A stretch of 64,000 bases of DNA from the NCBI GenBank assembly GCA_012861695.1, contig JAAOOA010001645.1:1-64000 (forward strand), in the 5' to 3' direction. The translations under genes and the position numbers were made by a program. Positions 1,958 through 42,247 of this stretch are shown one piece after another. The notes below the pieces were generated by a model. The model saw only the letters and a program-made list of their open reading frames with translations, was not told the DNA's origin and searched no databases. The DNA is from Trematomus loennbergii. Its lineage: Eukaryota > Chordata > Actinopteri > Perciformes > Nototheniidae. Within the stretch, counting starts at the first letter, position 1. Every line of letters begins with the position of its first letter.

Positions 1958-2007
1958 TACCCCCAAAAAAGTGCATCATGACTCAGCAATCATCACACTC
2001 AACTTTG

Positions 2008-3618: not shown

Positions 3619-3770
3619 GAGCCTCATAATCGGGTAGAGTCACCTGCAAAAGTGCCCTCGCATTCCTCCAAGTGTTGGGAGAACCAGGCTGGGGGGTCTT
3701 GAGGCACAAAATGAGGCCCACTCAGAGTGCTTGGTGAGCGGATACATTCTTCCATGATTTCCAACAGCCG
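3619..3770 (+). repeat. 152-bp direct repeat, copy 2
   Basis: Partner of 2313-2464. It ends at the same CAACAGCCG motif, after which the two loci diverge; this copy runs into the long tandem duplication starting at 3855. Confidence 0.85.
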
Positions 3771-3854
3771 TATTTTTTCTGAGTCCACCCAAAAACTGGG
3801 TTTCTGATTTCGTGCGGAAGGTAGTCTGAAAAACATGGATGAATCTTTTTGACA

Positions 3855-6080
3855 GAGAAGTGGAAATGAAGCCCAGGGACTTTTTCCCCTTCTCCGTTGT
3901 ACCAACCATCGGAGAAGGGGAAAAATCGGGCCGAAGCGCCAAACACCTGGCCACTACTCCCGTTGGCACTTAGAAAAAATTTCACAATTTTTCAAAACTT
4001 CATTTTTGATTATTTTAAGATATAATTAAGCGTTTTCTTCACTTTTTTTTTTGCTCCACGGGTGGGGGCGCCTGGCAGGCCGCCTATGAGCACCCAAATT
4101 CGGCCTGGATCATCCAGGATTTGTGGGAAAAAATCCATAAACTGACTAAATCACCCAGAGAGGTCCCCTACCTAGCCCAAATATATATAATACAAATACA
4201 TTTAAATAGTAAAAGGTGCACTTGTGCTCTGCATTACCCGGAATTTTATTTTCATAGCCCCATGATAGTGATTAAAAATCATTTTCATGGGAAAAAGTGT
4301 TAAAACGCCTGATTAAATTATATGCAGGACCCCAGTGAGCTCCAGACTATGTGCATTGTGTTGGGGAACCATATAAATGATAGAATAAATGCATTCAAAT
4401 GCAAAAATAATGATTTAAAATCATTTTAGGGGGACAATTGTGGAGAGGAGCCTGAAAATGACTCTGTTTTAAGATATAATTAAGCGTTTTCTTCACTTTT
4501 TTTTGCTTTCCACGGGTGGGGACGCCTGGCAGGCCGCCTAAGAGCACCCAAATTCGGCCTGGATCATCCAGGATTTGTGGGCAAAGCTCCATAAACTGAC
4601 TAAATCACCCAGAGAGGTCCCCTTTCTAGCCCAATATATATAATACAAATACATTTAAATAGTAAAAGGTGCACTTGTGCTCTGCATTACCGGGAATTTT
4701 ATTTTCATAGCCCCATGATAGTGATTAAAAATCATTTTCATGGGAAAAAGTGTTAAAACGCCTGATTAAATGATATGCAGGACCCCAGTGAGCTCCAGAC
4801 TATGTGCATTGTGTTGGGGAACCATATAAATGATAGAATACATGCATTTAAATGCAAAAATAATGATTTTAAATCATTTTAGGGGGACAATTGTGGAGAG
4901 GAGCCTGAAAAAGACTCTGCAGCACCCCGGATAACTACCACTTCATCTGGTTTAAATGTGGTGGTGATAGTGGCATTAACTAGTACCCAGTACTGGGAGA
5001 GAACCAGGTTACAGCACATGTCTTTTCGACCCAGGAAAGAGTGCTCGAAAGCTGGCTACAGCATAGTCACAGTGTGGAGGAACATGTTTCAAATGACAGC
5101 ACACTGCTGCTTGTTGGCAGGCTGACTCACTTCACTGGTCTCACACACACAGCCAGGGGGGAGAAAGAGGACACATTGACCCAGGAAAGAAGCCTCAAAA
5201 CACAGGTAAAAGTGTGTTAAACTGTGGGGGAACATGTTTCAAATGACAGCACACTGCTGCTTGTTGGCAGGCTGACTCACTTCACTTGTCTCACACACAC
5301 CCAGGGGGGGAGAAAGAGGACACATTGACCCAGGAAAGAGTGCTCGAAAGCTGGCTACAGCATAGTCACAGTGTGGAGGAACATGTTTCAAATGACAGCA
5401 CACTGCTGCTTGTTGGCAGGCTGACTCACTTCACTGGTCTCACACACACAGCCAGGGGGGAGAAAGAGGACACATTGACCCAGGAAAGAAGCCTCAAAAC
5501 ACAGGTAAAAGTGTGTTAAACTGTGGGGGAACATGTTTCAAATGACAGCACACTGCTGCTTGTTGGCAGGCTGACTCACTTCACTTGTCTCACACACACC
5601 CAGGGGGGGAAAGATAACACTTGTACCCAGGAATAAGTCTTTGAAAGGCGGGGAAAAGTTGTTTGAAATAGTATAATACCTCCAGGCCGCTTAACTGCAC
5701 TTTACCACCCAGAAATAATGTTTAAATGGTCGGGGAAAGTATTTTTAAATGTCTGGAAGAGAGTTTTAGACAGTCATTTTGCACGAAATTATTTAACATA
5801 GACGCTCTCCTGAAAATGCACAGAATATGTGCTTTTTCAGGAGACCGTTAATGTTAAATGATTTCTTGCAAAATGACTGGCTAAAACCCCGGAATAAATG
5901 TTTGAAAAGCTGGGAAAAGTTGTTAAAAATAGGCTGATATCTCCAGGGCGCATCACCAAAAATGTACAAGCCAGGGAAGATGCCTGAATCCCGGATACTT
6001 TAGGTCTGTCACTTAGGGTGACCGCACCACTCCGACGCTCCCGAGAGCGGACGTCCATTGTTTGCAAGGCACCTAAGAGG
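3855..6080. repeat. Large tandem duplication, unit 1 (2.2 kb)
   Basis: The sequence starting GAGAAGTGGAAATGAAGCCC at 3855 starts again at 6081, and both copies run in parallel to the motif GGCACCTAAGAGGGAG. Each contains two tandem copies of a 454-bp AT-rich unit (here 4015 and 4469), a block of 140-150-bp units with AACATGTTTCAAATGACAGC (here 5091, 5231, 5380, 5530), a 123-bp hairpin, and a single-copy tail. No coding sequence is convincing; short open frames are repeated in each unit. Confidence 0.9.
5764..5886. repeat. 123-bp imperfect hairpin
   Basis: The outer arms begin TTTTAGACAGTCATTTTGC and pair with the reverse complement of the sequence ending at 5886, with a few mismatches. Between them a second arm pair, CTCCTGAAAATGCAC and GTGCTTTTTCAGGAG, continues the stem, leaving a loop of about 7 nt. 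It could be a small MITE or a hairpin RNA source; I see no terminal duplication. Confidence 0.8.
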
Positions 6081-8457
6081 GAGAAGTGGAAATGAAGCCC
6101 AGGGACTTTTTCCCCTTCTCCGTTGTACCAACCATCGGAGAAGGGGAAAAATCGGGCCGAAGCGCCAAACACCTGGCCACTACTCCCGTTGGCACTTAGA
6201 AAAAATTTCACAATTTTTCAAAACTTCATTTTTGATTATTTTAAGATATAATTAAGCGTTTTCTTCACTTTTTTTTTGCTCCACGGGTGGGGGCGCCTGG
6301 CAGGCCGCCTATGAGCACCCAAATTCGGCCTGGATCATCCAGGATTTGTGGGAAAAAATCCATAAACTGACTAAATCACCCAGAGAGGTCCCCTACCTAG
6401 CCCAAATATATATAATACAAATACATTTAAATAGTAAAAGGTGCACTTGTGCTCTGCATTACCCGGAATTTATTTTCATAGCCCCATGATAGTGATTAAA
6501 AATCATTTTCATGGGAAAAAGTGTTAAAACGCCTGATTAAATTATATGCAGGACCCCAGTGAGCTCCAGACTATGTGCATTGTGTTGGGGAACCATATAA
6601 ATGATAGAATAAATGCATTCAAATGCAAAAATAATGATTTAAAATCATTTTAGGGGGACAATTGTGGAGAGGAGCCTGAAAATGACTCTGTTTTAAGATA
6701 TAATTAAGCGTTTTCTTCACTTTTTTTGCTTTCCACGGGTGGGGACGCCTGGCAGGCCGCCTAAGAGCACCCAAATTCGGCCTGGATCATCCAGGATTTG
6801 TGGGCAAAGCTCCATAAACTGACTAAATCACCCAGAGAGGTCCCCTTTCTAGCCCAAATATATATAATACAAATACATTTAAATAGTAAAAGGTGCACTT
6901 GTGCTCTGCATTACCGGGAATTTTATTTTCATAGCCCCATGATAGTGATTAAAAATCATTTTCATGGGAAAAAGTGTTAAAACGCCTGATTAAATGATAT
7001 GCAGGACCCCAGTGAGCTCCAGACTATGTGCATTGTGTTGGGGAACCATATAAATGATAGAATACATGCATTTAAATGCAAAAATAATGATTTAAAATCA
7101 TTTTAGGGGGACAATTGTGGAGAGGAGCCTGAAAAAGACTCTGCAGCACCCCGGATAACTACCACTTCATCTGGTTTAAATGTGGTGGTGATAGTGGCAT
7201 TAACTAGTACCCAGTACTGGGAGAGAACCAGGTTACAGCACATGTCTTTTCGACCCAGGAAAGAGTGCTCGAAAGCTGGCTACAGCATAGTCACAGTGTG
7301 GGGGAACATGTTTCAAATGACAGCACACTGCTGCTTGTTGGCAGGCTGACTCACTTCACTTGTCTCTCACACACAGCCAGGGGGGAGAAAGAGGACACAT
7401 TGACCCAGGAAAGAAGCCTCAAAACACAGGTAAAAGTGTGTTAAACTGTGGGGGAACATGTTTCAAATGACAGCACACTGCTGCTTGTTGGCAGGCTGAC
7501 TCACTTCACTTGTCTCACACACACCCAGGGGGGGGGAGAAAGAGGACACATTGACCCAGGAAAGAGTGCTCGAAAGCTGGCTACAGCATAGTCACAGTGT
7601 GGAGGAACATGTTTCAAATGACAGCACACTGCTGCTTGTTGGCAGGCTGACTCACTTCACTGGTCTCACACACCCAGGGGGGGGAGAAAGAGGACACATT
7701 GACCCAGGAAAGAGTGCTCGAAAGCTGGCTACAGCATAGTCACAGTGTGGAGGAACATGTTTCAAATGACAGCACACTGCTGCTTGTTGGCAGGCTGACT
7801 CACTTCACTGGTCTCACACACACAGCCAGGGGGGAGAAAGAGGACACATTGACCCAGGAAAGAAGCCTCAAAACACAGGTAAAAGTGTGTTAAACTGTGG
7901 GGGAACATGTTTCAAATGACAGCACACTGCTGCTTGTTGGCAGGCTGACTCACTTCACTTGTCTCACACACACCCAGGGGGGGAAAGATAACACTTGTAC
8001 CCAGGAATAAGTCTTTGAAAGGCGGGGAAAAGTTGTTTGAAATAGTATAATACCTCCAGGCCGCTTAACTGCACTTTACCACCCAGAAATAATGTTTAAA
8101 TGGTCGGGGAAAGTATTTTTAAATGTCTGGAAGAGAGTTTTAGACAGTCATTTTGCACGAAATTATTTAACATAGACGCTCTCCTGAAAATGCACAGAAT
8201 ATGTGCTTTTTCAGGAGACCGTTAATGTTAAATGATTTCTTGCAAAATGACTGGCTAAAACCCCGGAATAAATGTTTGAAAAGCTGGGAAAAGTTGTTAA
8301 AAATAGGCTGATATCTCCAGGGCGCATCACCAAAAATGTACAAGCCAGGGAAGATGCCTGAATCCCGGATACTTTAGGTCTGTCACTTAGGGTGACCGCA
8401 CCACTCCGACGCTCCCGAGAGCGGACGTCCATTGTTTGCAAGGCACCTAAGAGGGAG
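6081..8457. repeat. Large tandem duplication, unit 2 (2.4 kb)
   Basis: Second copy of 3855-6080. The offset is 2226 bp at the start and 2374 bp at the hairpin. The 148-bp difference equals one extra internal 140-150-bp unit (five here, four in unit 1). The copies are otherwise almost identical, which fits a recent duplication followed by slippage inside the short array. Confidence 0.9.
8138..8260. repeat. 123-bp imperfect hairpin, second copy
   Basis: Copy of 5764-5886 carried by the tandem duplication, 2374 bp downstream, with the same arms and the same inner stem. Confidence 0.8.
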
Positions 8458-21504: not shown

Positions 21505-23521
21505 ACAACAGAACCATGAAAATAAACATAAAAAGGAAAAGGAAAAAATAGAACCAAAAAATAAATAAATTAAAAATAAAATAAAAACCAAACAAGTAAA
21601 ACAAACAAATAATTATACAATACAAATAATTATACAATACAGTGACAATGTAGACAATGACAACACCATAACACGTATTTCCGGCCGTCAGGACAAATAG
21701 CCACAGAATGCACCATTCCATCACTTGGTCATATCTCAGATATGTTTTCCAAATAAGAAAACAATGGCAACCACAGAGCTTGAAAAATATGTCCACGATT
21801 ATATTTTTCCAATGTCATTTTCTCCAGAGGTAAAAAATGTGTTATCTGATCAATGAAAAGTTTAAATGTTGGGGGACGTTCATTCTTCCAGAATAAAAGT
21901 ATACATTTCTTGGCAAAATATGTTATTGTGATTAGTATTCTGTAATGTTTTGAGTTCAGTTTAAAGTTTGGCATGTCATTTAACAGGAAAAAACATGGAT
22001 TTAGGCTAATTTCGATGTCTAAAACGGCTTTTGTGAGAGCATGAATCGAATCCCAGAAATGTTTCAAGAGATCACAATCCCAAAACAGATGCATAAATGT
22101 TCCTTCTTTTATTTTACATCTCGGACATTTTGGAGTTTTCTTTGGAAATGTTATGCATCTTTATGGGTGTGAGGTCAAATTTGTTGATACATTTAAAGTT
22201 TGCTTCTTTGATTTTATTGCTTGTGAATGGAAAATGTGTTCTTTCACAATATTCAGCCAAGTAGTTGCATCTATCTGTATCCCTAAGTCCTTTTCCCAGA
22301 TCTTTTTTAAAGTTAGAAATGATGACTGAGCTCTTTTAGAAAAACTGCATTAAATTCACTAATTTTACCTTTGATCGTGCTCGATGACATCAATATCTCC
22401 TCCTCTTCTAACAATCCCGATCTCAATTTATTGCTTTTAATAATTGATTGGATCACGTTCCTAATTTGCAGGTATCTGAAAAAATCCTTATTTGAAATGT
22501 CATATTCTGCTCTTAAATCATTAAATGATTTCATTGTTATATCTTTGTGAAACAAATGTTTCAATTGCTTTATACCTGATTTCGTCCATTTGTTTATATC
22601 GATTGACAACAAATATTTGCTAAGATCAGGATTGTTCAAAATAGGAGAAAAGATGGAAATACCAGAGTTAACATGAACTTTTTTTGTACAGTCCCTCCAG
22701 GCTAAAAGTGTATTGACCACTGTAAAACATTTGTCCATATTTTTCACCTTATTGAAATCTTTAACAAATATAAGAGTTTCCACTGGCAACGGGTCAAAGA
22801 CATTGGCTTCTATCTGAACCCATAGTGAATCATTTCTTCCCAGAGACCATGATAGTACATTTCTTAAATTGAGCTGACCATAAGTAGTGTTGAAAGTTGG
22901 GAAGACCAAGTCCCCCCATAGTTTCTGGTTTCATAAGAGTAATTAACTTGATTCTTGGTTTTTTATTACACCAGATACATTTTGAGATATGTCTATTGAG
23001 AGATTTAAAATAGTCAGCGGATAAATAGCATGGTAACATTTGAAAAAGAAAATTACATCTCGGTAGAATATTCATTTTTATGACATTGATTCTTCCTAGC
23101 AGTGATATTGGTAATGTGGACCATTTAGATACATCCTGTTTGATTTTGTCAATGAGCGGATTGTAATTCTCTTTAAACAGATTATCCAGTGTGGTGTTAT
23201 ATTTATTCCTAAGTATTTAAAGCCACCTGGTGACAAATTAAAAGAACAAGACTTTTCCAGATTTGCTGTTGGCGTCATATGTAAGAAACAAGCATTAGAT
23301 TCTTAAAATTAATTTTATATCCTGAGTATCTTCCAAATTGCTCTATCGTGTTGTGCAGATGTGGTACTGAATTTTCTGGGTCTGTTAAGTAAGAATGATA
23401 TCGTCAGCATACAGAGAAATGTTGTGATCATCGTTATCTTCACTCCTTTAATACCCTGTTTGCAGCAAAACGTCTACTTCTGTATTGATGAGTTTAGATA
23501 CTCTTGATCTAAATCAGATAA
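21505..23521 (-). pseudogene. L1-type LINE ORF2, 3' half (split by the palindrome)
   Basis: Minus strand, from 23521 downward: LPTLSDLDQEYLN text, then a deletion of most of the reverse transcriptase core, then the catalytic box ISLYADDIIL (about 23412-23440), the FKYLGI...IT region (23278), MNILPRCNFLFQMLP and MGGLGLPNF (23075-22900), and the C-terminal MHLFWDCD region (22094) ending at 21729. These are landmarks of L1-type ORF2 after the fingers/palm. Several frames are used, so it is decayed. The 5' half continues at 37404-38657 on the other side of the inserted palindrome; the two join in frame across the CCTACG (CGTAGG) target site. The far 3' end, near the Kolobok TTAA at 21501, is not clearly defined. 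Confidence 0.8.
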
Positions 23522-23689
23522 CGTAGGAGTAGTGTTACCAATCCCGCTTCAATCTCATTAGTATGCATAAAAAAGTGACAGGTCACACCTTCTAAGTCCC
23601 GCCCCCTAATTATGTTTATGACATCCTCCTTTGATATGCTAATGAGCCCCTTTGATCGAGGTGTTATCGCGTACAGGTGTGACATCACA

Positions 23690-23925
23690 TCCTCACCTAG
23701 CCCCCACCCCCCTCAGCCCACCCCCCTCCCCCTCACATACAGGTGCTACATCCTCTCAGGTAGCCCCCCCTTCTCAGCCCCCACCCCGCTCAGCCCCCAC
23801 CCTCTCAACCCACCCCTCCTCCCCTTACAGCAGGTTTCACATCCGCCCTCTCAGCCCCCACCTCTCTCAGCCCCCACCTACCGCAACCCACCCCCCTCCT
23901 CATCCCCCTCCTGTCCGGTCAGCAG
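23690..23925. repeat. Pyrimidine-rich subterminal repeat, left arm
   Basis: Repeated CTCAGCCCCCACC-type units, strongly C-rich on this strand, about 160 bp inside the left end. A related shorter stretch lies at 24643-24720. Mirrored near 37010-37240 as a G-rich block. The G-rich strand could form quadruplex structures (inference). Confidence 0.8.
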
Positions 23926-25520
23926 GGCTGTTACAGTTTAAATCTTACGGACAAAATTAGATATGATTCGCTATTAAACAAACTAATTATAGTAGATTAA
24001 TTAACTATTCAAACGTGTACAGTAATTTACAATAACACGGGAATAATAAAACGGGGGCGCTCTCCCTCCTCTCATGACAACACGCCAGTATCATGCAGCT
24101 CGCGGGTCCAATAGTGAGTGACTCGATAGTAAAACTAAAAAACATAGTTATAACTAGTTTAGGTAGTTTGAGAGGTAATTAAAATAGCTGCGTGTGATAT
24201 CTGAAGAGTGTGTTTTGTTCCGCTCAACGCATACAGAGATGCATGGCGAATAGTCCGCAGCACCGGTTCTCCCGTCAGCAGCAGCACAGCGTCTCTCCCG
24301 TCACGTTACTAGCGTTTATGTCCATGCGCAATCAGCCCATACAGGATATCTTCTGTCGGTCACACACTATTCTTGTATGTCACATAAGTGGTGCAAATGA
24401 TACGGTATTGCGCTAAAGGGTGGTATCATTCTGGGCCGGAGAGATTTCCCTCCACACACACACGCACACACAAGTCTCTCTGGAGAGGTTAACAATAGTT
24501 TAAAGATCTTACTGACCATGGGGTATTTTTGGTTTTTTCTTTATGTTTAATTACATCACCCATTAATAAAATAATCCTTATATGAAGTTATATGAGATTA
24601 GAAATAGCTGTAGGTTAGGAGGAAAGAGAAGATTTTTTTTTTATGTCGCCCCCACCACCTCCTCAGCCCCCACCCCCTCTCAACCCCCTCCTCCTCATCC
24701 CCCTCCTGTCCGGTCAGCGGGGCCATTACAGTTTAAATCTTACGGACAAAATTAGATATGACTCGATATTAAACAAACTAATGGACAGTCTCCTGAGACA
24801 TATGGTGGGGGACTCGTTTGGGGGGTGTACACATAAGTGATGCAACTTTAGATACACTTTTGAAGTAAGCACCACTCTACAACTGGTAGAAAGTTAAGTA
24901 CTTTGTATGGAATTGGGTTTTCTTTAGAGCTGTTTTCAGTGAGACAATGCAGTTTCTGATCATTTCAAGTTTCAAGTTTCAAGGATTTATGGCATATGCC
25001 CATTAGCTACAGTGTAGATATGTCAATGAAAAACATAGGTCACAGGCTCCTCCAACAGTGCACATAAAACAGATAAAATACTGCAATTTGTGCGTAATTC
25101 TCTCACAAAGGAACTGTAAGATACACGTTTATGTATGGAAAACTATATAACTTGGTAAAATATTCATTCATTTGTAGTGAATTGAGTTTTCTTCAAGAAT
25201 AAAACTCTAAATGGAGAGTTAGTGATTCGATGAAACAATGCAGTTTTGATAACTTGACTTGACTAACATTACTTTTTTTTAAATATATGTTTTTTAGATG
25301 CTTTACTTTTGATTTCTTTCATATTATTTTAACACAACATTACTTTTTTCATATTTTTCAACATACTGTGAATATATATATATATATATTTTTTTTTTTC
25401 TCTCCATTATATTTTTGAATATACAGTGATTTGTACCAAAATACAACATGCAACTATTACATTATACAATATTATGGCTTTTTGCGATATTTTCAACACA
25501 ATATACTTTCTTTTTTGTAG

Positions 25521-25696
25521 GGCTTCAGGATATTGGGCATGTCATGCGTAAAACTGGTGTCATCTTTCCTGAAACTGATGTGCTGTCCGTTTTACAAACA
25601 AGTTATCTTTCTGCTTCTTCACCCTCTGAATTTTCCTCCCCCGTCCCTCTTCCTTCAGCCATCACAACAGCAATCAAGTCAGATCTGAGAAATTAA
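25521..25696 (+). CDS. Possible terminal exon, left arm
   Basis: After a strong acceptor (TTCTTTTTTGTAG) a 58-codon open stretch runs to TAA at 25694, starting GLQDIGHVMRKTG and ending IKSDLRN. The acceptor and clean stop suggest a last exon; upstream exons are not identified. Mirror copy at 35239-35414 (minus). Unknown family. Confidence 0.35.
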
Positions 25697-26482
25697 ACAC
25701 CTCTTCCCAAAGCGTGACTTCCCTATTGAGGGAGGGGGGCAGTGGGGCCTAACCCTATTTGGCCAAATATACTAACATGCAGAACATATGGTATGTTTGA
25801 AAAAAGACTAACCATCTATCCAGTTCAAGCTGTCTTTAAGATGTGACTTTTTCCCCGTAAAATCGTGACAAACTATTACTTATTAAATTTGACCTCATGC
25901 TGCTTGGTTGAAAATGATAGATGAGCATTTAGCAACAGATCAACGCGCAATCAACCCATACAGGAGATCTCTTTTCTACACATTATGTGTTATCACTATA
26001 ATATCATGTCATTATTTAATGTTGTTTTGTTTGTGTGTGTGTGTGTGTACAACGAAGTCTCTTTGAGAGGGAAAATTATAATTTAAAGATCTTAATACCC
26101 CCTTATTGTTTAATTACTTCACACAACTATTAAAGAATCCCTATATGAAGTTACATGAGGCTACATTTTACGGGTGTGCTTCCTTAGATGATGTAAATAG
26201 TTTAAGTGTCATGTTAGGGGGGCATTACGGACCTCAGGAGTCCGCCCTTGGAGGCTTGGAGAGCGGATAAAGAGAGGCGTATTTACTGGTGTTGAGCCCG
26301 GGATGATGTAAATAGTCCAAGTGCCATGGAACTCAGGAGTCCGCCCTTTGAGGCGTTGTTAACATTAATGTTTTTTGCTTCTGTTTTTGTTACTAAGATA
26401 CTTTTTAGCCTTATGATAGGATGAACTTAAGCTGTAGTCAATAAAGACATGTTTAATAGAGTGTTGCTGTTAGAGAACATAC

Positions 26483-27049
26483 CTGCGCAGCACTCCACCA
26501 CGTCTTGGTTTTGGCTTCATGGCCTTCACTGTCCTCTCCCTTTTGAGTTTTTTCAAAGGCTAGGATACATTTTTCCAAATGATCACTTGTTACCTGGTGA
26601 CAAACATATGGTTATATAACCTTAAAGAACTAACAAAAAATAATTAAGTATTTGCAATGCATAAACATAGAAGATATCACTGTCATATTATGATCACTTA
26701 TTGTAAGTAAGTTTAAGTAAAACTAACACAAGTCAATATTATTCACCTGGGCATTAGTGGGCTTGAGGGTCTCAGGGAGCGTGGACAAAGTGACTTGTCT
26801 CTGTATTTGAGGATTCTCAGTGCAGGCACTAACAGGAAGCTGCTGTGCATTAGTGGAGAGTCCTCTGAAGGCAGCTGTTATTTCATTCACACACTCATCT
26901 GTTACCTGCTGACTCCTCATAGTAAGTCTATCAAAGTCAGCTGTTAAGTTGTCCATACCATCGCTGGATAACAGGTAACTTTTGATTGACAGTCCAGCCA
27001 TGGCAGCTGCCAACTCGTCCATATAATTCTTAAGAACGTGGTGACAATA
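26483..27049 (-). CDS. Two exons of the same unidentified gene, left arm copy
   Basis: Mirror of 33886-34452: exon A 26747-27049 and exon B 26483-26593, with the same splice sites and no amino-acid difference seen in exon A. Identity of both copies suggests either a very recent palindrome or conversion between arms. Confidence 0.45.
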
Positions 27050-28428
27050 CTACAAAAAAGTGTATATATTAGGTCAGTTAACCTTGAAGAGCTAAACAGT
27101 TCAAGTGGTAAGTAACTAAGTATTTGCAATGAATAAACATAGAAATGATCACTGTCATATTATATAATCACTTAATATGGAGATAAGTAAAACTGACACA
27201 GACAGTTTAAACTGCTTGTTAAAACGCTATTGCTTATTGTGTTTTCTCAGCACACTAACATAAATTAAGGATGTATAATATAAAAAACTAGAAAACGATA
27301 TAGTATTTTCAAGTCTTACTTTAGTATGGTAAAATTAAGAATAAGTCACATTAAAGTGTGTCATGATTTTCCGTAAAAAAGTCAAGTATAGTTTGTCAAA
27401 AGAATATGAAAAAATCATTTTGTAGAGTAGTATATTGAAAATCTCAGTGTTTAACTGAACACACCTACATGTGATAACGCCTCGAACAAAGGGGTAATTA
27501 GCATACAAAGGGGGGTCACTAGCATCAGTGGGGGAAAGGTGCTATGGGAATGAACTTTGAGGAGGGGGAACTTCCAGCCCCTAAACATCTAGTTGGGCAA
27601 TGTGAATTGAACGATAAACCGATCACTGTAAATGAAACGCGGAGAGAAGCAGCAGTGCAAATCGCTAAGTCTATTACCTTGTATGCACTACGACATTAAC
27701 TTGGTCAAATGTAATATGTCTTTCTGAAGATGTGGCGAATGGTGTGTTTTTCAATTAAACAACCATAACAAAATGAAAATGTGTTTTATTTTTGCTTTCA
27801 TATATAGTAATAGTATTAACTCCTCTGACTAGACTGTACTAAAATAAGACGTTTCACTGTTAAATAAAAATGGAAGTAGAAAATCGAGATAATGAGGAGG
27901 CTCGTTATGTATCCAGTAACTATGAACAGCAGTTTGAAAATGTTATTTAACCCTTTAACTCTAATTGACAAATCTAAAATAGCCTCTAGCTTATCTATAA
28001 ATTTGTGATTTTAACACTTATTCACTGACACAAGGCAGATTATGGCTTTTTTCTCTTGCCAAGATACTTTTAGACACACTCTGAGGTATGCAAAACCTTA
28101 AAACTAGAAAATGAAGTACATTGTCTGATTAGATTTTTTCGTAAAGACTGTTTCTCTAAAAGGCAAGTTTGTGATTTTTAACACTTATTTACTGACACAA
28201 GGCAGATTTTTGACTTTTTTCTCTTTTCATGTGTTACCAAGATACTTTTTAGATACACTTTTTTGTATGCAACACTTAACAAAGGGGTATAATATGAAGT
28301 ACTTTGTAAGGAATGGGGGTTTCTTTAATACCCCGTTGTAGAAAGTTAAGTACTTTTTCTGAACAGATTTTCTTTAAGACTGTGACTCTTAAAGACACTC
28401 TGGGATTTTAGTAAGACAATCCAGTTTT

Positions 28429-28803
28429 ATGGAAGTAACTAAAATTATTTTTGTTTTTTTCTCCTACAAAGATACTTATAGTTACACTTTAGTGGATGCA
28501 AAACTTAAAGTAAAATTAAAAATGGGTAACTACTATGGAAAACAATCTGTATATATCTATCAGAATGCAGTCAATACCTGTTTAATAAGTGTGTTGTTGA
28601 TGACGATTGAAAACAGAATGAGTAGTGATCCCCGTGTAAACAGAATGGTTGAAGTTTGTAAACTAGAAGACATTTTGGATATCGTTCATTCTGGCAGTAC
28701 TATTCCGGGTCATTGGGAAACGATTGTAAACGAAACATTTAAAGTGGTACTGGAATCTTCATTTTCCGAAACATTCTGTAACATTAGTCAAGTCATAGTA
28801 TAG
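28429..28803 (+). CDS. 124-residue open frame, unknown, left arm
   Basis: An open frame from ATG 28429 to TAG 28801, starting MEVTKIIFVFFSYKDT, with a mixed, protein-like second half (SDPRVNRMVEVCKLEDI, WETIVNETFKVV). A possible 3' exon, because an AG-like polypyrimidine context precedes it (TTTTTCTCCTACAAAG near 28470). Its exact copy lies at 32132-32506 on the minus strand. No motif I recognise. Confidence 0.35.
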   Translation: MEVTKIIFVFFSYKDTYSYTLVDAKLKVKLKMGNYYGKQSVYIYQNAVNTCLISVLLMTIENRMSSDPRVNRMVEVCKLEDILDIVHSGSTIPGHWETIVNETFKVVLESSFSETFCNISQVIV

Positions 28804-28974
28804 TTTGACAAAAAGATCTTGAAAAAGTCATGACATTGTGTGTTGAAATGGTTTTGAATAAACACATCAGTATTTAAAAAAGTAAAATTGTATCAAGTGC
28901 ATCAGACAACTCAAATTACTCCATTTGAACCATATTATAAATAAGTATAGAATGGTCATAGTATATAGCAGGGG

Positions 28975-30195
28975 TGTTTAATAGATTTCTGTGTTCTGTG
29001 TTTTGTGTGTCAGTGTTGCAGTGTTTCAGTGTTTCAGTGTTTCAGTGTTCTGTGTTTCAGTGTTGCAGTGTTTCAGTGTTTTGTGTCAGTGTGTCAGTGT
29101 TGCAGTGTTGTAGTGTTTCAGTGTTTTGTATGTCAGTGTTTCAGTGTTTCAGTGTTTATGTATTTCAGTGTTTTCAGTGTTTTGTGTTTCAGTGTTTCAG
29201 TGTGTTTGTGTTTCAGTGTTTTCAGTGTTTTTGTGTTTCAGTGTTTCAGTGTGTTTGTGTTTCAGTGTTTCTGTGTTGCAGTGTTGCAGTGTTTCAGTGT
29301 TTTCAGTGTTTCTGTGTTTCTGTGTTGCAGTGTTGCAGTGTTTCAGTGTTTTCAGTGTTTTGTGTTTCAGTGTTTCAGTGTTTTTTGTGTTTCAGTGTTT
29401 CAGTGTTTCTGTGTTTTTGTGTTGCAGTGTTTCAGTGTTTTCAGTGTTTTGTGTTTCAGTGTTTCAGTGTTTTTGTGTGTCAGTGTGTCAGTGTTTCAGT
29501 GTTGCAGTGTTTCAGTGTTCAGTGTGTCAGTGTTTCAGTGTTGCAGTGTTTCAGTGTTTCAGTGTTTTGTGTTTCAGTGTTTCAGTGTGTCAGTGTTGCA
29601 GTGTTTCAGTGTTGCAGTGTTTCAGTGTTTTCAGTGTTTTGTGTTTCAGTGTTTCAGTGTGTCAGTGTTACAGTGTTTCAGTGTTTCAGTGTTTCAGTGT
29701 TCTGTGTTTCAGTGTTTTGGGTGTCAGTGTGTCAGTGTTGCAGTGTTTCAGTGTTTCAGTGTTTCAGTGTTTAGTGTTTCAGTGTTTTCAGTGTTTTGTG
29801 TTTCAGTGTTTCAGTGTTTTTGGTGTTTCAGTGTTTCAGTGTTTTTGTGTTTCTGTGTTTCTGTGTTTTTGTGTGTCAGTGTTTTCAGTGTGTCAGTGTT
29901 TCAGTGTTGCAGTGTTTCAGTGTTTTCAGTGTTTTGTGTTTCAGTGTTTCAGTGTGTCAGTGTTGCAGTGTTTCAGTGTTCAGTGTTTCAGTGTTTTCAG
30001 TGTTTTGTGTTTCAGTGTTTCAGTGTGTCAGTGTTGCAGTGTTTTGTTGTGTCAGTGTGTCAGTGTTGCAGTGTTTCAGTGTTTCAGTGTTTCAGTGTTT
30101 ATGTGTTTCAGTGTTTTCAGTGTTTTGTGTTTCAGTGTTTCAGTGTTTTTGTGTTTCAGTGTTTCAGTGTTTCAGTGTTTTGTGTGTCAGAGTGT
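28975..30195 (+). repeat. Degenerate 8-bp (TTTCAGTG) repeat block, left arm
   Basis: About 1.2 kb made of TGTTTCAGTG and variants (TTGCAGTG, TTTTGTG, TGTCAGTG). An 8-bp unit without stop codons gives long open frames in all three plus frames; these are not genes. Confidence 0.95.
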
Positions 30196-30260
30196 CAGTG
30201 TTTACAGCCTTTCTTTGCTCTGATCAATCCCACAGGGATCTCCCCCTGGAAGGAATATAG

Positions 30261-30412
30261 CAGGATGAGAGAAAAACATTAAAAAAACGTATCTTAGAAG
30301 TGGCTATAACATTTGATGCAATTCTAAAAGATAGTCAGATTCCTAAAAAGTTACAAACGGATGATGGAAAAGAATTATTTAACAAGATTTTTGAAGCCTT
30401 GCTGAAGAAAAC
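30261..30412 (+). pseudogene. Polinton-type integrase core fragment at the palindrome apex
   Basis: The plus-strand frame from 30261 (after a TAG at 30258) runs through the left arm end and the 32-bp centre. It contains LQTDDGKELFN followed by FEALLKK. In retroviral-like integrases of Polintons, the second catalytic aspartate sits in a TDxGxEF-type box followed by a partly basic helix; D in TDD and the NKIFEALL helix fit this. The text before it (spaced ...AILKDS..IPKK) also matches the family pattern. The first aspartate and the glutamate are absent: upstream is low-complexity repeat, downstream the frame turns into antisense of itself. A mirrored partial copy lies on the minus strand at 30413-30530. 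Non-functional remnant; it would have joined element ends to target DNA. Confidence 0.65.
30381..30412. other. 32-bp unique centre of the palindrome
   Basis: The only part of the element without a mirror copy. Arms meet as AAAGAATTATTT on the left and AAATAATTCTTT on the right. On the plus strand it is coding, continuing the integrase-like frame (FEALLKK). Confidence 0.9.
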
Positions 30413-30594
30413 AAATAATTCTTTTCCATCATCCGTTTGTAACTTTTTAGGAATCTGACTATCTTTTAGAATTGCATCAAATGTTATAGCCACTTCTAAG
30501 ATACGTTTTTTTAATGTTTTTCTCTCATCCTGCTATATTCCTTCCAGGGGGAGATCCCTGTGGGATTGATCAGAGCAAAGAAAGGCTGTAAACA

Positions 30595-31960
30595 CTGACA
30601 CTCTGACACACAAAACACTGAAACACTGAAACACTGAAACACAAAAACACTGAAACACTGAAACACAAAACACTGAAAACACTGAAACACATAAACACTG
30701 AAACACTGAAACACTGAAACACTGCAACACTGACACACTGACACCCAAACACTGAAACACAGAACACTGAAACACTGAAACACTGAAACACTGCAACACT
30801 GACACACTGAAACACTGAAACACAAAACACTGAAAACACTGAAACACTGCAACACTGAAACACTGCAACACTGACACACTGAAACACTGAAACACAAAAC
30901 ACTGAAAACACTGAAACACTGCAACACTGAAACACTGACACACTGAAAACACTGACACACAAAAACACAGAAACACAGAAACACAAAAACACTGAAACAC
31001 TGAAACACCAAAAACACTGAAACACTGAAACACAAAACACTGAAAACACTGAAACACATAAACACTGAAACACTGAAACACTGAAACACTGCAACACTGA
31101 CACACTGACACCCAAAACACTGAAACACAGAACACTGAAACACTGAAACACTGAAACACTGCAACACTGACACACTGAAACACTGAAACACAAAACACTG
31201 AAAACACTGAACACTGCAACACTGAAACACTGCAACACTGACACACTGAAACACTGAAACACAAAACACTGAAAACGAAACACTGCAACACTGAAACACT
31301 GACACACTGAAAACACTGACACACAAACACTGAAACACAGAAACACAAAAACTGAAACACTGAACACAAACACTGAAACACTGAAACACAAAACACTGAA
31401 AACACTGAAACACAAAACACTGAAACACTGAAACACTGAAACACTGCAACACTGCACACTGACACCAAAACACTGAAACACAGAACACTGAAACACTGAA
31501 ACACTGAACACTAACACTGACACACTGAAACACTGAAACACAAAACACTGAAAACACTGAAACACTGCAACACTGAAACACTGAAACACTGACACACTGA
31601 AACACTGAAACACAAAACACTGAAAACACTGCAACACAGAAACACAGAAACACTGAAAACACTGAAACACTGCAACACTGCAACACAGAAACACTGAAAC
31701 ACAAAAACACTGAAAACACTGAAACACAAACACACTGAAACACTGAAACACAAAACACTGAAAACACTGAAATACATAAACACTGAAACACTGAAACACT
31801 GACATACAAAACACTGAAACACTACAACACTGCAACACTGACACACTGACAAAAAACACTGAAACACTGCAACACTGAAACACAGAACACTGAAACACTG
31901 AAACACTGAAACACTGCAACACTGACACACAAAACACAGAACACAGAAATCTATTAAACA
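30595..31960 (-). repeat. Degenerate 8-bp repeat block, right arm
   Basis: Mirror of 28975-30195 (CACTGAAA units), about 140 bp longer. This length change accounts for almost the whole difference between the two arms, so the repeats have slipped since the palindrome formed. Confidence 0.95.
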
Positions 31961-32131
31961 CCCCTGCTATATACTATGACCATTCTATACTTATTTATAA
32001 TATGGTTCAAATGGAGTAATTTGAGTTGTCTGATGCACTTGATACAATTTTACTTTTTTAAATACTGATGTGTTTATTCAAAACCATTTCAACACACAAT
32101 GTCATGACTTTTTCAAGATCTTTTTGTCAAA

Positions 32132-32506
32132 CTATACTATGACTTGACTAATGTTACAGAATGTTTCGGAAAATGAAGATTCCAGTACCACTTTAAATGT
32201 TTCGTTTACAATCGTTTCCCAATGACCCGGAATAGTACTGCCAGAATGAACGATATCCAAAATGTCTTCTAGTTTACAAACTTCAACCATTCTGTTTACA
32301 CGGGGATCACTACTCATTCTGTTTTCAATCGTCATCAACAACACACTTATTAAACAGGTATTGACTGCATTCTGATAGATATATACAGATTGTTTTCCAT
32401 AGTAGTTACCCATTTTTAATTTTACTTTAAGTTTTGCATCCACTAAAGTGTAACTATAAGTATCTTTGTAGGAGAAAAAAACAAAAATAATTTTAGTTAC
32501 TTCCAT
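32132..32506 (-). CDS. 124-residue open frame, unknown, right arm
   Basis: Mirror copy of 28429-28803 with the same protein. Retention of an intact frame in both arms means no information about selection by itself, since arms can correct each other. Confidence 0.35.
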   Translation of the reverse strand: MEVTKIIFVFFSYKDTYSYTLVDAKLKVKLKMGNYYGKQSVYIYQNAVNTCLISVLLMTIENRMSSDPRVNRMVEVCKLEDILDIVHSGSTIPGHWETIVNETFKVVLESSFSETFCNISQVIV

Positions 32507-33885
32507 AAAACTGGATTGTCTTACTAAAATCCCAGAGTGTCTTTAAGAGTCACAGTCTTAAAGAAAATCTGTTCAGAAAAAGTACTTAACTTTCTACAAC
32601 GGGGTATTAAAGAAACCCCCATTCCTTACAAAGTACTTCATATTATACCCCTTTGTTAAGTGTTGCATACAAAAAAGTGTATCTAAAAAGTATCTTGGTA
32701 ACACATGAAAAGAGAAAAAAGTCAAAAATCTGCCTTGTGTCAGTAAATAAGTGTTAAAAATCACAAACTTGCCTTTTAGAGAAACAGTCTTTACGAAAAA
32801 ATCTAATCAGACAATGTACTTCATTTTCTAGTTTTAAGGTTTTGCATACCTCAGAGTGTGTCTAAAAGTATCTTGGCAAGAGAAAAAAGCCATAATCTGC
32901 CTTGTGTCAGTGAATAAGTGTTAAAATCACAAATTTATAGATAAGCTAGAGGCTATTTTAGATTTGTCAATTAGAGTTAAAGGGTTAAATAACATTTTCA
33001 AACTGCTGTTCATAGTTACTGGATACATAACGAGCCTCCTCATTATCTCGATTTTCTACTTCCATTTTTATTTAACAGTGAAACGTCTTATTTTAGTACA
33101 GTCTAGTCAGAGGAGTTAATACTATTACTATATATGAAAGCAAAAATAAAACACATTTTCATTTTGTTATGGTTGTTTAATTGAAAAACACACCATTCGC
33201 CACATCTTCAGAAAGACATATTACATTTGACCAAGTTAATGTCGTAGTGCATACAAGGTAATAGACTTAGCGATTTGCACTGCTGCTTCTCTCCGCGTTT
33301 CATTTACAGTGATCGGTTTATCGTTCAATTCACATTGCCCAACTAGATGTTTAGGGGCTGGAAGTTCCCCCTCCTCAAAGTTCATTCCCATAGCACCTTT
33401 CCCCCACTGATGCTAGTGACCCCCCTTTGTATGCTAATTACCCCTTTGTTCGAGGCGTTATCACATGTAGGTGTGTTCAGTTAAACACTGAGATTTTCAA
33501 TATACTACTCTACAAAATGATTTTTTCATATTCTTTTGACAAACTATACTTGACTTTTTTACGGAAAATCATGACACACTTTAATGTGACTTATTCTTAA
33601 TTTTACCATACTAAAGTAAGACTTGAAAATACTATATCGTTTTCTAGTTTTTTATATTATACATCCTTAATTTATGTTAGTGTGCTGAGAAAACACAATA
33701 AGCAATAGCGTTTTAACAAGCAGTTTAAACTGTCTGTGTCAGTTTTACTTATCTCCATATTAAGTGATTATATAATATGACAGTGATCATTTCTATGTTT
33801 ATTCATTGCAAATACTTAGTTACTTACCACTTGAACTGTTTAGCTCTTCAAGGTTAACTGACCTAATATATACACTTTTTTGTAG

Positions 33886-34452
33886 TATTGTCACCACGTT
33901 CTTAAGAATTATATGGACGAGTTGGCAGCTGCCATGGCTGGACTGTCAATCAAAAGTTACCTGTTATCCAGCGATGGTATGGACAACTTAACAGCTGACT
34001 TTGATAGACTTACTATGAGGAGTCAGCAGGTAACAGATGAGTGTGTGAATGAAATAACAGCTGCCTTCAGAGGACTCTCCACTAATGCACAGCAGCTTCC
34101 TGTTAGTGCCTGCACTGAGAATCCTCAAATACAGAGACAAGTCACTTTGTCCACGCTCCCTGAGACCCTCAAGCCCACTAATGCCCAGGTGAATAATATT
34201 GACTTGTGTTAGTTTTACTTAAACTTACTTACAATAAGTGATCATAATATGACAGTGATATCTTCTATGTTTATGCATTGCAAATACTTAATTATTTTTT
34301 GTTAGTTCTTTAAGGTTATATAACCATATGTTTGTCACCAGGTAACAAGTGATCATTTGGAAAAATGTATCCTAGCCTTTGAAAAAACTCAAAAGGGAGA
34401 GGACAGTGAAGGCCATGAAGCCAAAACCAAGACGTGGTGGAGTGCTGCGCAG
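33886..34452 (+). CDS. Two exons of an unidentified gene in the right palindrome arm
   Basis: Exon A, 33886-34188, follows a TTTTTTGTAG acceptor and ends CAG|GTGAAT; it encodes 101 residues including NYMDELAAAMAGL. Exon B, 34342-34452, follows CACCAG and ends CAG|GTATGT; it encodes 37 residues (HLEKCILAFEKTQK, then WWSAAQ). Both are phase 0 and fully open, and the splice sites are good, which supports real exons. The alternative start ATG at 33913 would make exon A a first exon. I recognise no family. The remaining exons are not identified, so the gene may be incomplete. An identical copy lies in the left arm. It may be a Polinton accessory gene or captured host sequence. Confidence 0.45.
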
Positions 34453-35238
34453 GTATGTTCTCTAACAGCAACACTCTATTAAACATGTCTTTATTGACTA
34501 CAGCTTAAGTTCATCCTATCATAAGGCTAAAAAGTATCTTAGTAACAAAAACAGAAGCAAAAAACATTAATGTTAACAACGCCTCAAAGGGCGGACTCCT
34601 GAGTTCCATGGCACTTGGACTATTTACATCATCCCGGGCTCAACACCAGTAAATACGCCTCTCTTTATCCGCTCTCCAAGCCTCCAAGGGCGGACTCCTG
34701 AGGTCCGTAATGCCCCCCTAACATGACACTTAAACTATTTACATCATCTAAGGAAGCACACCCGTAAAATGTAGCCTCATGTAACTTCATATAGGGATTC
34801 TTTAATAGTTGTGTGAAGTAATTAAACAATAAGGGGGTATTAAGATCTTTAAATTATAATTTTCCCTCTCAAAGAGACTTCGTTGTACACACACACACAC
34901 ACAAACAAAACAACATTAAATAATGACATGATATTATAGTGATAACACATAATGTGTAGAAAAGAGATCTCCTGTATGGGTTGATTGCGCGTTGATCTGT
35001 TGCTAAATGCTCATCTATCATTTTCAACCAAGCAGCATGAGGTCAAATTTAATAAGTAATAGTTTGTCACGATTTTACGGGGAAAAAGTCACATCTTAAA
35101 GACAGCTTGAACTGGATAGATGGTTAGTCTTTTTTCAAACATACCATATGTTCTGCATGTTAGTATATTTGGCCAAATAGGGTTAGGCCCCACTGCCCCC
35201 CTCCCTCAATAGGGAAGTCACGCTTTGGGAAGAGGTGT

Positions 35239-35414
35239 TTAATTTCTCAGATCTGACTTGATTGCTGTTGTGATGGCTGAAGGAAGAGGGACGGGGGAGG
35301 AAAATTCAGAGGGTGAAGAAGCAGAAAGATAACTTGTTTGTAAAACGGACAGCACATCAGTTTCAGGAAAGATGACACCAGTTTTACGCATGACATGCCC
35401 AATATCCTGAAGCC
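35239..35414 (-). CDS. Possible terminal exon, right arm
   Basis: Mirror copy of 25521-25696 with identical translation and the same acceptor in reverse orientation. Confidence 0.35.
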
Positions 35415-37009
35415 CTACAAAAAAGAAAGTATATTGTGTTGAAAATATCGCAAAAAGCCATAATATTGTATAATGTAATAGTTGCATGTTGTATTTTGGT
35501 ACAAATCACTGTATATTCAAAAATATAATGGAGAAAAAAAAAAAAAATATATATATAATATCACAGTATGTTGAAAAATATGAAAAAAGTAATGTTGTGT
35601 TAAAATAATATGAAAGAAATCAAAAGTAAAGCATCTAAAAAACATATATTTAAAAAAAGTAATGTTAGTCAAGTCAAGTTATCAAAACTGCATTGTTTCA
35701 TCGAATCACTAACTCTCCATTTAGAGTTTTATTCTTGAAGAAAACTCAATTCACTACAAATGAATGAATATTTTACCAAGTTATATAGTTTTCCATACAT
35801 AAACGTGTATCTTACAGTTCCTTTGTGAGAGAATTACGCACAAATTGCAGTATTTTATCTGTTTTATGTGCACTGTTGGAGGAGCCTGTGACCTATGTTT
35901 TTCATTGACATATCTACACTGTAGCTAATGGGCATATGCCATAAATCCTTGAAACTTGAAACTTGAAATGATCAGAAACTGCATTGTCTCACTGAAAACA
36001 GCTCTAAAGAAAACCCAATTCCATACAAAGTACTTAACTTTCTACCAGTTGTAGAGTGGTGCTTACTTCAAAAGTGTATCTAAAGTTGCATCACTTATGT
36101 GTACACCCCCCAAACGAGTCCCCCACCATATGTCTCAGGAGACTGTCCATTAGTTTGTTTAATATCGAGTCATATCTAATTTTGTCCGTAAGATTTAAAC
36201 TGTAATGGCCCCGCTGACCGGACAGGAGGGGGATGAGGAGGAGGGGGTTGAGAGGGGGTGGGGGCTGAGGAGGTGGTGGGGGCGACATAAAAAAAAAATC
36301 TTCTCTTTCCTCCTAACCTACAGCTATTTCTAATCTCATATAACTTCATATAAGGATTATTTTATTAATGGGTGATGTAATTAAACATAAAGAAAAAACC
36401 AAAAATACCCCATGGTCAGTAAGATCTTTAAACTATTGTTAACCTCTCCAGAGAGACTTGTGTGTGCGTGTGTGTGTGGAGGGAAATCTCTCCGGCCCAG
36501 AATGATACCACCCTTTAGCGCAATACCGTATCATTTGCACCACTTATGTGACATACAAGAATAGTGTGTGACCGACAGAAGATATCCTGTATGGGCTGAT
36601 TGCGCATGGACATAAACGCTAGTAACGTGACGGGAGAGACGCTGTGCTGCTGCTGACGGGAGAACCGGTGCTGCGGACTATTCGCCATGCATCTCTGTAT
36701 GCGTTGAGCGGAACAAAACACACTCTTCAGATATCACACGCAGCTATTTTAATTACCTCTCAAACTACCTAAACTAGTTATAACTATGTTTTTTAGTTTT
36801 ACTATCGAGTCACTCACTATTGGACCCGCGAGCTGCATGATACTGGCGTGTTGTCATGAGAGGAGGGAGAGCGCCCCCGTTTTATTATTCCCGTGTTATT
36901 GTAAATTACTGTACACGTTTGAATAGTTAATTAATCTACTATAATTAGTTTGTTTAATAGCGAATCATATCTAATTTTGTCCGTAAGATTTAAACTGTAA
37001 CAGCCCTGC

Positions 37010-37240
37010 TGACCGGACAGGAGGGGGATGAGGAGGGGGGTGGGTTGCGGTAGGTGGGGGCTGAGAGAGGTGGGGGCTGAGAGGGCGGATGTGAAACCTG
37101 CTGTAAGGGGGGAGGAGGGGTGGGTTGAGAGGGTGGGGGCCGAGCGGGGTGGGGGCTGAGAAGGGGGGGCTACCTGAGAGGATGTAGCACCTGTATGTGA
37201 GGGGGAGGGGGGTGGGCTGAGGGGGGTGGGGGCTACCGGT
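37010..37240. repeat. Purine-rich subterminal repeat, right arm
   Basis: Mirror of 23690-23925, reading GGTGGGGGCTGAG units on the plus strand, with minor unit differences from the left arm. Confidence 0.8.
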
Positions 37241-37403
37241 GAGGATGTCACACCTGTACGCGATAACACCTCGATCAAAGGGGCTCATTAGCATATCAAA
37301 GGGAGGATGTCATAAACATAATTAGGGGGCGGGACTTAGAAGGTGTGACCTGTCACTTTTTTATGCATACTAATGAGATTGAAGCGGGATTGGTAACACT
37401 ACT

Positions 37404-38657
37404 CGTAGGTAAATTAATGTTATGGAGATAATTGTCCAGTTCATCTTGTGAGTAATCAGATTGAGATTTGTATAATTTGTTATAAAATTCATAGAAAGTC
37501 TGGTTAATCTGTTTTGGGTGGTAGGTTATTTCGTTGTCTTTCAGACAAATTGCTTTTATAGCCCTTTCTGCTTGCTCCTTCTTTAATTGATAAGCAAGTA
37601 GTTTACTTGGTTTATTGCCGAATTCATAATTATTTTGTCTGATAAGATTCATTTGTGTTATGTTTTAATTTGTTAAGTCAATATTAATTTAGCTCTGGCT
37701 GTGTTTAATTGTTTCCAGTTTTCATCTGTTGATGCGGATTTATGAAGTGCTTCACATCTGTTTACTTCTCTTTCAAGTTCTTGTCTGAGCCTAATTTTTT
37801 CACATTTTTTAAAAGATGTGTATGAGATAATAAGTCCTCTTAAAGTAGCTTTTGCAGCTTCCCAAATAATATTCGGATCTATAGAGGGGTCATTGTTTTC
37901 TTTTATATAGTACCTTATCCACATTCGCATTTTGTATTTGAATTTTTCGTCTCTAACTAAGGAGTTATCAAATTTCCAGCGCCTGGATACAAATTCTCCA
38001 CTCTCCAAGTGAATAGTTAAATGAACTCTTGCATGATCCGAAATATTAATGGAATCAATTTTACATTCTTTTACCCTATGCATGTATTTTGAGGGAATAA
38101 AAAAATAATCTATTCTAGAATAAGAGTTGTGGACATTTGAAAAGAAAGTGTAATCTTTGACATCCTGATTTAGTTGACGCCATACATCAATAAGGCCACA
38201 TTCTGCACAAAGTATGTAGGCACAATGTAGGGTTAAGAGTGCAGTTGAAATCGCCGCCCATCAGTCCTAATCCTTTACAATTTTCATTGAAGAGCAGCAC
38301 CATGTCAGACATGAACATTGGTTCATCTATGTTGGGAGCATAGATATTTAAAAAGGGTTCCAAAAATAGTACCGACAACCAAAACAAACCCACCATTTGG
38401 GTCCGTAACTAATTTTTTCTAAGGCAAGTTTTGTTTATCACAATAGCTGTCCCTCTACTATGGGTTTTATATGATGAAAAATACACCTGACCTATCCAAT
38501 CTCTTTTCAATTTAAGGTGTTCAGTATCTGAGAGAAAGGTTTCTTGTAAGAAGACCACATCAGCTTTGTCTTTTTTAAGAAGAGATAGTACTTTATTCCT
38601 TTTTATGGGATTTCCCAAGCCTTTAATATTCCAAGAATATATTTTCATATTTTGCAT
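37404..38657 (-). pseudogene. L1-type LINE ORF2, 5' half: endonuclease and linker
   Basis: Starting at 38657 on the minus strand: MKIYSWNIKGLGNP, then VVFLQETFLSD, the N and QET boxes of an AP-type endonuclease; then NIYAPNIDEP (38340) and MGGDFN (38270). Downstream frames (38083-37673 and 37652-37410) give the linker before the reverse transcriptase, ending HNINLPT at the palindrome junction. At least two frame changes and stops break it. The LINE copies itself by target-primed reverse transcription when intact; this copy cannot. Its 5' leader may extend to about 38900. Confidence 0.8.
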
Positions 38658-41499: not shown

Positions 41500-42247
41500 T
41501 AGGGATGCTCCGATCGCCAATTTTGGGGCCGATCGCCAATCGCTGGAATCAGTATCGGCCGGAATCAGTATCGGCCGATACCGATCGCCGATCCGATCGA
41601 GTGGGCGGCGCCTAAATGGAAGATTTAAACATCACTTTAAATCTTCCATTTAAAGTGATGTTTAAAACTCAGTTAATGGGGCTCATTCACTGGCGCTTCC
41701 ACAAACAACAATAAACTTAATTATTACATTCAAATGATGTACATTATTCAAGTTTACATTAACTTTGGATAATAACACGGGAGAAATGAGCGGAAGCGCT
41801 CTCTTTTCCTCTCTCCCCCTCTCTCTCTCCTGACAGCCCGTCAGTATCTCATGCAGCTCACTGATCCAGTAATGAGTGACCCGACAGTGAAGAATAAATA
41901 TATTTATAACTAGTTTAGCTTGTTCCAGAGGTAGATAAAATAGCTAAGTGTGTTAGGTCTAACTCTTGTGTGTTTCGCTCCGCTCACCGGTCCGTCACAG
42001 CGGGTGGAGCTGCAGGATTTCTGCTTCACACACACGTTGCATACCGCTATTTTACTGTCTTTTTCGGACACCTTAAAATAATGCCAGACCGGTGAAGCCA
42101 TTTTGGCGAGCTTGTTTTGCCCCGCACAGAGAAAAGTGTCATGTATTTTACGTCATGCGATCGGCATGTTTAGAGAGCACCGATCGATCGGTAGAGAGTG
42201 AGTATCGGCAGATCTCGATCGGTGACCGATCGATCGGAGCATCCCTA
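41500..42247 (-). mobile_element. hAT element, 748 bp, internally deleted
   Basis: The ends are TAGGGATGCTCCGATCG and its inverted counterpart, flanked by the 8-bp duplication GTCCTTAT (41492-41499 and 42248-42255). These are hallmarks of hAT. The minus strand retains a BED-type finger start (SPVWHYFKVSEKDSK, CNVC) at 42101-42020, the N-terminus of hAT transposases. The rest of the enzyme is gone. A 38-bp perfect hairpin around ATGGAAGATTTAAAC lies at 41613-41650. It sits inside the piggyBac relic. Confidence 0.85.

Follow-up and report, generated by a model that had tools for sequence, protein, structure and literature searches.

The stretch of DNA considered here (the window, 64,000 nucleotides of contig JAAOOA010001645.1 of Trematomus loennbergii, designated C1645) contains a giant palindromic element that is a derivative of the Maverick (Polinton) transposons, and copies of the same palindrome are found at many other places in this genome. 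The features of the element and of its immediate flanks are as follows.

22313–23521, minus strand: open frames of a long interspersed nuclear element (LINE) in the left flank, a name assigned by eye
23522–23527: left copy of the target-site duplication (TSD), CGTAGG
23528–37403: the whole palindromic element, 13,876 bp, delimited by alignment of its ends and arms
23528–30380, plus strand: left arm, 6,853 nt, opening with AGTAGT, from arm-to-arm comparison
23528–24829, plus strand: outermost 1,302 nt of the left arm, which match the polymerase-side end of a full-length Maverick on contig C86 at 96.4% identity
28522–28803, plus strand: open reading frame (ORF) of 93 codons with three database relatives (P0001–P0003)
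28986–30203, plus strand: minisatellite of the left arm with an 8-bp unit (TTTCAGTG), 1,218 nt
30261–30416, plus strand: Maverick integrase fragment, cut at the fold, its last codons belonging to the mirror arm
30381–30412, plus strand: single-copy loop of 32 nt, the fold point common to the family, from arm alignment and a genome-wide loop search
30413–37403, minus strand: right arm, 6,991 nt, mirroring the left arm and closing with ACTACT, from arm-to-arm comparison
30590–31949, minus strand: mirror of the 8-bp minisatellite in the right arm, 1,360 nt
37404–37409: right copy of the TSD, CGTAGG
37410–38260, minus strand: LINE open frames of the right flank, in frame with those on the left when the empty site is restored

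The mirroring of the arms starts at the first base, and the stem adjacent to the loop is perfect over 332 bp. The coordinates given in the original prediction (23528–37403, with arms of 6.85 and 6.99 kb around a 32-bp centre) proved correct to the single base upon alignment, and the perfect inverted termini starting with AG that it had described are found as AGTAGT//ACTACT, with the outermost 102 nt identical between both ends of the element. Since the two arms leave only the loop between them, the whole element is indeed terminal repeat, as had been claimed. In the stretches free of simple repeats (24001–25260, 25401–28985, and 30204–30380), no substitution separates the arms in 5,022 aligned nt, and the arms are identical across 3.6 kb. 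The minisatellites, in turn, have drifted apart by 38 substitutions and 12 gap events. Judged by its length and identity, the inverted repeat is far beyond chance.

Two further resemblances were observed within the arm. A subterminal box with ATGCTAAT at 23603–23681 recurs in inverted orientation at 27460–27534 (77% over 79 nt) and may represent a control element or a former end, and the stretch 24060–24229 resembles 41813–41989 outside the element (179 nt, 75% identity).

The flanks of the element do not mirror each other (35 matches in 100 nt) and, when joined with one copy of CGTAGG, they give a single continuous LINE frame; the palindrome in the window is thus a clean insertion. The earlier claim of a 6-bp duplication inside a LINE therefore holds as regards the duplication and the closure of the frame, with the name of the LINE assigned by eye and no family assigned by Pfam to those flanking pieces that were scanned. 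Independent copies are located elsewhere in the genome, some of them within contigs of 25.7 and 32.9 Mb. The unmirrored flanks, the continuous LINE frame, and these independent copies argue against an artefact of fold-back reads, and the palindrome is confirmed as real.

A family of palindromes sharing one fold

The loop has 187 matches with up to three mismatches (86 and 101) in the genome searched (1.208 Gb, 3,566 contigs), compared with none for the reversed control. All 30 loop loci that were cut out are mirrored at the same apex point, with a loop of 32 nt in 19 of them, of 31 nt in nine, and with other small changes in two. Part of one arm beside the loop is lost or altered in several loci, including L059, L067, L070, L072, L075, L077, L080, and L082. 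A search with the first 973 nt of the arm yielded 2,242 first-look candidates, 40 of which were scored; these 40 best places, two of them the window's own arms, are 95–100% identical over at least 885 nt. Eight further convergent pairs of termini, fetched as halves, are giant palindromes without exception, their arms being 96.5–99.5% identical in the longest hit, and seven of the eight have their own 6-bp TSD (CGTGTG, TAGAGC, CAGAAG, TACGGC, AAAATG, GGTGAC, and TACGAA, the last with one shared base). Among four more copies, of the type with a 31-nt loop, TSDs are present in three (C1, GATATC; C12, CAAACC; C23, TGTGAT), while the stretches taken from the fourth, C14, stopped short of the ends. 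The element had been described as a single unusual fold-back Polinton that integrated cleanly; the clean integration stands, and the single element is in fact a family of many copies.

An error in which the assembler had joined mirrored reads or haplotypes could account for the identity of the arms over kilobases, as well as for the mirrored flanks of one copy, on contig C506, described below. However, an own 6-bp duplication is found in 11 of the 13 palindromic copies for which the ends were sought (the window included), the window's flanks are unrelated and its LINE frame closes, and the minisatellites differ between the arms. We consider such an error very improbable.

The apex region varies among the fetched copies. 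The loop is seen in C147, C506, C1041, and C65; C623 and C87 have mirrored integrase arms around an altered loop; in C272, the integrase is seen on a single side; and the halves of C27 yielded neither the loop nor the integrase arm. A variant terminus, AGTAGTAGTACATATCCCGC, is present on both arms of C12 and C23 (L087:1724 and L088:1410; L091:421 and L092:973). The terminal 39-mer occurs at 318 places with up to three mismatches (164 and 154; control, 0), although this search probably misses the variant terminus of C12 and C23. From 100 listed exact termini among these matches, 38 end-pairs were formed by eye, and their contents were scored with 100 of the 187 apex places, as well as with 14 protein-primed DNA polymerase (PolB) and 13 integrase places that had been picked. 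Scored in this way, 19 pairs hold the apex, seven hold both PolB and integrase, none holds the apex together with these genes, and 12 hold neither, three of the latter (C27, C87, and C272) being palindromes by direct fetch. The apex lies in the middle of the element (0.446–0.534 of its length) in 17 of the 19 pairs that hold it.

On average, the two arms of a copy resemble each other more closely than they resemble the arms of other copies. In the arm segment 4060–5440, compared in seven of nine copies (C27 and C65 were dropped as partial), the difference averages 0.03% within a copy vs. 0.09% between copies, and an arm's own mate is its nearest or joint nearest neighbor for 13 of the 14 arms. 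For two outer segments, the corresponding values are 0.29 vs. 0.67% and 0.30 vs. 1.07%, the own mate being nearest for 8 and 11 of 18 arms; these figures are noisy from gap placement and weakly support homogenization of the arms. Stronger evidence comes from larger changes: an insertion of ~1.06 kb is present on both arms of C506, and one of ~240 bp on both arms of C272, whereas a tandem duplication of ~508 bp affects a single arm in C1041 and C87 but both arms in C27. A diagnostic site at the apex has the same letter on both arms in 25 of 28 loci, the exceptions being L061 (A/C), one G/C pair, and one gap. The shared insertions, the variant termini occurring on two arms, and the matching letters at the apex site indicate that sequence changes pass between the arms of one copy.

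Gene content and full-length Mavericks in the same genome

The open frame at the apex contains the motif QTDDGKELFN, which we place around the second catalytic Asp in an integrase of the DDE type, and its match to the Pfam rve family is weak (E = 0.04). With a small integrase profile, the fragment scored above all 5,000 of 5,000 shuffles and ranked first among 116 arm ORFs, the runner-up being the same ORF, although both results are partly circular, since four of the five profile sequences had been chosen by the motif of the fragment. It is assigned to a Maverick integrase because of its match to the integrase of the full-length Maverick on C86 (79% over 115 nt, the alignment ending at the fold), not because of the profile score. 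Protein searches with the fragment gave 12 candidates, none with E ≤ 0.001, and in another search three, none with E ≤ 10. The fragment has no match in PDB, NCBIfam, or PHROGs, and the region has none in Rfam. Scans of IMG/VR with the fragment, with the relative P0001, and with the terminal 16-mer found no relative, the 24 loci bearing the 16-mer sharing only 16–17 nt at the terminus.

No complete integrase gene was found in the palindrome, which has the apex fragment only. A Pfam scan of 40 arm ORFs (45 codons or longer), covering frames outside the minisatellites and not split by introns, found no PolB, capsid, ATPase, or protease family (best E, 0.01); a match to the minor-capsid family P9_TM is weak (E = 0.048). 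The best local matches of the 93-codon ORF are 84–93% identical and belong to three relatives on short contigs (P0001–P0003), two of which extend ~45 C-terminal residues past the arm ORF. Two adjoining minus-strand ORFs at 26456–27049 resemble exons with splice sites recognized by eye; Pfam gives no family for either, and the pair is possibly a captured host gene. Elsewhere in the window, a Gypsy-type pol (55319–59032, minus strand) has an open frame of 1,237 codons with integrase and chromodomain, and many tandem arrays with units of 60–453 bp occupy 31–8007.

Full-length Mavericks, in turn, are abundant in this genome. PF03175 (protein-primed PolB) has at least 122 matches (91 of 116 candidates scored), PolB frames of at least 900 residues without a stop occur at no fewer than eight places, and PolB lies ~4 kb inside six of the terminal hits (C86, C140, C150, C17, C717, and C2709). 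The element on C86 (24986781 to 25001977; 15,197 bp; TSD TGCTTG) is a full-length Maverick, with an integrase whose stop-to-stop open frame of 390 codons lies close to the end away from PolB and points inward. Between the integrase-side end of this element and the arm, 98.8% identity extends over the first 160 nt, and short repeats are shared as well. We also observed in this end about five tandem copies of the subterminal 92–159 nt segment (L083:3507–3824). The part of the integrase gene beyond the fold was found in near-identical form in the 40 best of 419 candidates, 20 of which, including C86, are 100% identical over 441 nt; the full-length Mavericks have thus multiplied very recently in this genome. 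Other palindromic copies and full-length Polintons sharing the termini, for which the original prediction had proposed a search and whose absence it had named as a refutation, are therefore both present in this genome, the latter being represented by C86 and by the seven end-pairs with PolB and integrase. The Polinton/Maverick origin proposed at the outset is likewise upheld by the end motif, the 6-bp TSD, and the match of the apex to a full-length Maverick integrase.

The abundance of full-length elements could also favor recurrent fold-back, in which such parents remake mirrors at one hot spot, each mirror integrating once and the palindrome itself not multiplying; separate events could then underlie the loop variants of 31 and 32 nt and the two terminal variants. 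However, the junctions vary by no more than a single A, a non-exhaustive search turned up no full-length element that has the inner arm, and the C86 integrase differs from the apex fragment and continues differently past the fold. Recurrent fold-back is thus regarded as unlikely, with a small probability left to it.

A probable single origin and a proposed mechanism

We consider it highly probable that the palindromes form a giant fold-back Maverick family, in which one fold-back made a mirror genome that then multiplied with enzymes provided in trans. An ancestral Maverick would have been undergoing protein-primed, strand-displacing replication when a 3' end within the integrase gene turned back on its own strand, skipped 31–32 nt, and was copied out to the same terminus; the result would be a mirror genome whose two terminal origins are identical. 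One such fold-back inside the integrase, with this number of nucleotides skipped, would explain the apex. In reactions with phi29 polymerase, according to PMC1855051, freed 3' ends reprime on nearby strands, and 406 of 475 chimeras were inverted, with an intervening deletion and often with short complementarity. A 7-bp microhomology at the fold was considered and dropped, as C86 departs at the turn, leaving at most ~3 nt.

The multiplying unit would be the palindrome itself and not a full-length parent each time. The polymerase and the integrase would come in trans from full-length Mavericks. For replication, as well as for integration with a 6-bp duplication, the AGTAGT ends would suffice; the repeated AGT at both mirror ends is expected to serve jumping-back initiation (PMC8097293). 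The displaced mirror strand could self-anneal end to end, creating a ready duplex origin, and repair would keep the arms alike. The lack of a complete integrase strongly implies that integrase acts on the palindrome in trans. The TSDs of copies devoid of genes point to regular integration and lend indirect support to mobilization by a helper. Packaging of the 13.9-kb palindrome by a helper may be possible, since its length falls within the 12.7–24.6 kb given for intact vertebrate Mavericks in PMC8097293. The replication route, packaging, and helper dependence of the family are what we infer from these comparisons.

Several observations weigh against this reading. No direct parent was found. 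At the apex, the C86 integrase reaches only 79% identity, and the inner arm (1.3–6.7 kb) has no long match in the fetched 8.1 kb of C86. Since the outer arm resembles the polymerase-side and not the integrase-side end of C86, a simple copy of one end is inadequate, and either long equal ends were already present in the parent, or recombination replaced the ends at a later time, which would fit both the variant termini and the surplus of differences between the outer arms. Taken by itself, the rve match is no better than chance, three of eight other listed families scoring better among the 40 arm ORFs. The palindrome on C506 (C506:65336–81767; L041 and L042) has mirrored flanks and no direct duplication, and represents either a larger inverted duplication or an assembly error. 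The eight fetched copies were picked by similarity to the window and hence are a non-random sample, and what was seen are integrated copies in the assembly, not free DNA, particles, or transposition. Finally, within the window, the outermost 293 nt of each arm (23528–23820 and its mirror) show five arm-to-arm differences vs. 0 in 5,022 nt (p = 4.9e-7), an excess that plain fold-back does not predict; this stretch is also low in complexity.

The latter excess would fit formation in place, by which a chromosomal full-length Maverick broke in the integrase, folded back, copied its arm, and rejoined via the opposite terminal repeat, retaining its TSD. This route was weighed seriously on account of the outer-arm differences and dropped after the mirrored copies and their shared fold had been found: all 30 loci, as well as copies with different TSDs, share one fold point, and the same break repeated at many sites is implausible. 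Formation in place has, in our judgment, hardly any probability.

Comparison with known systems

According to PMC8097293, AGTAGT//ACTACT is the commonest end motif of vertebrate Mavericks, their TSDs are 6 bp long, and two gene modules, one of which includes the integrase, point to the center, with accessory regions outside these modules in most elements. The palindrome resembles them in its ends, TSD (in the window and ten further palindromic copies), center-pointing integrase, and size, and differs in having no complete gene found and a terminal repeat of 6.85 kb vs. 46–1,447 bp, with 32 nt instead of unique genes between the repeats. It is thus a Maverick derivative and not an autonomous Maverick, since integrase, polymerase, and the length of the terminal repeat all depart from the latter.

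Among protein-primed replicons, mirror-type defective genomes of adenovirus and hairpin or inverted-dimer derivatives of yeast linear plasmids have one end on both sides. The palindrome likewise corresponds to such a replicon reduced to a mirror with identical ends, and the same end on both sides of one fold is seen in the window, the fetched copies, and the loop loci; those mirrors, however, are free DNA in cells or particles, whereas the palindrome is integrated, multiplied in the germline, and kept. The inverted chimeras of phi29 polymerase in multiple displacement amplification show the fold-back priming by a strand-displacing, protein-primed polymerase that is proposed here and share with the palindrome a short skipped stretch at the inverted junction, but are an in vitro by-product that is not heritable (PMC1855051). 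Foldback (FB) transposons also consist almost entirely of terminal inverted repeat, although, compared by description only, they have other ends and enzymes in place of the Maverick end motif and 6-bp TSD. Miniature inverted-repeat transposable elements (MITEs) and other non-autonomous transposons have ends recognized by enzymes made elsewhere, as presumed here, and differ from the palindrome in its 13–14 kb, its mirror structure, and its presumed need for polymerase plus integrase. By analogy, the palindrome would behave both as a satellite, or mirror-type defective genome, of a replicon with protein priming and as a long-repeat fold-back transposon. No palindromic Maverick family is described in the titles and starts of abstracts listed by the searches, in a literature that includes few subscription papers.

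We can speculate, tentatively and with more doubt than confidence, that the family is a lasting self-complementary Maverick satellite, a mirror genome from a single fold-back, which replicates, is perhaps packaged, and integrates with helpers, gains a duplex origin, and has its arms kept alike by hairpin repair. If so, its read-through RNA would take the form of a very long hairpin, which could contribute to the silencing of those helpers that share its ends.

Long palindromes are usually unstable in chromosomes, and the family suggests that a long palindrome is able to multiply in the germline. It also suggests that, given proteins made elsewhere, the ends of a Maverick suffice for its replication and integration, and that a heritable mirror genome can arise through protein-primed replication. 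As near-identical full-length Mavericks are present in the same genome, minimal ends and helper dependence are testable, and the palindromes provide a natural record of Maverick replication.

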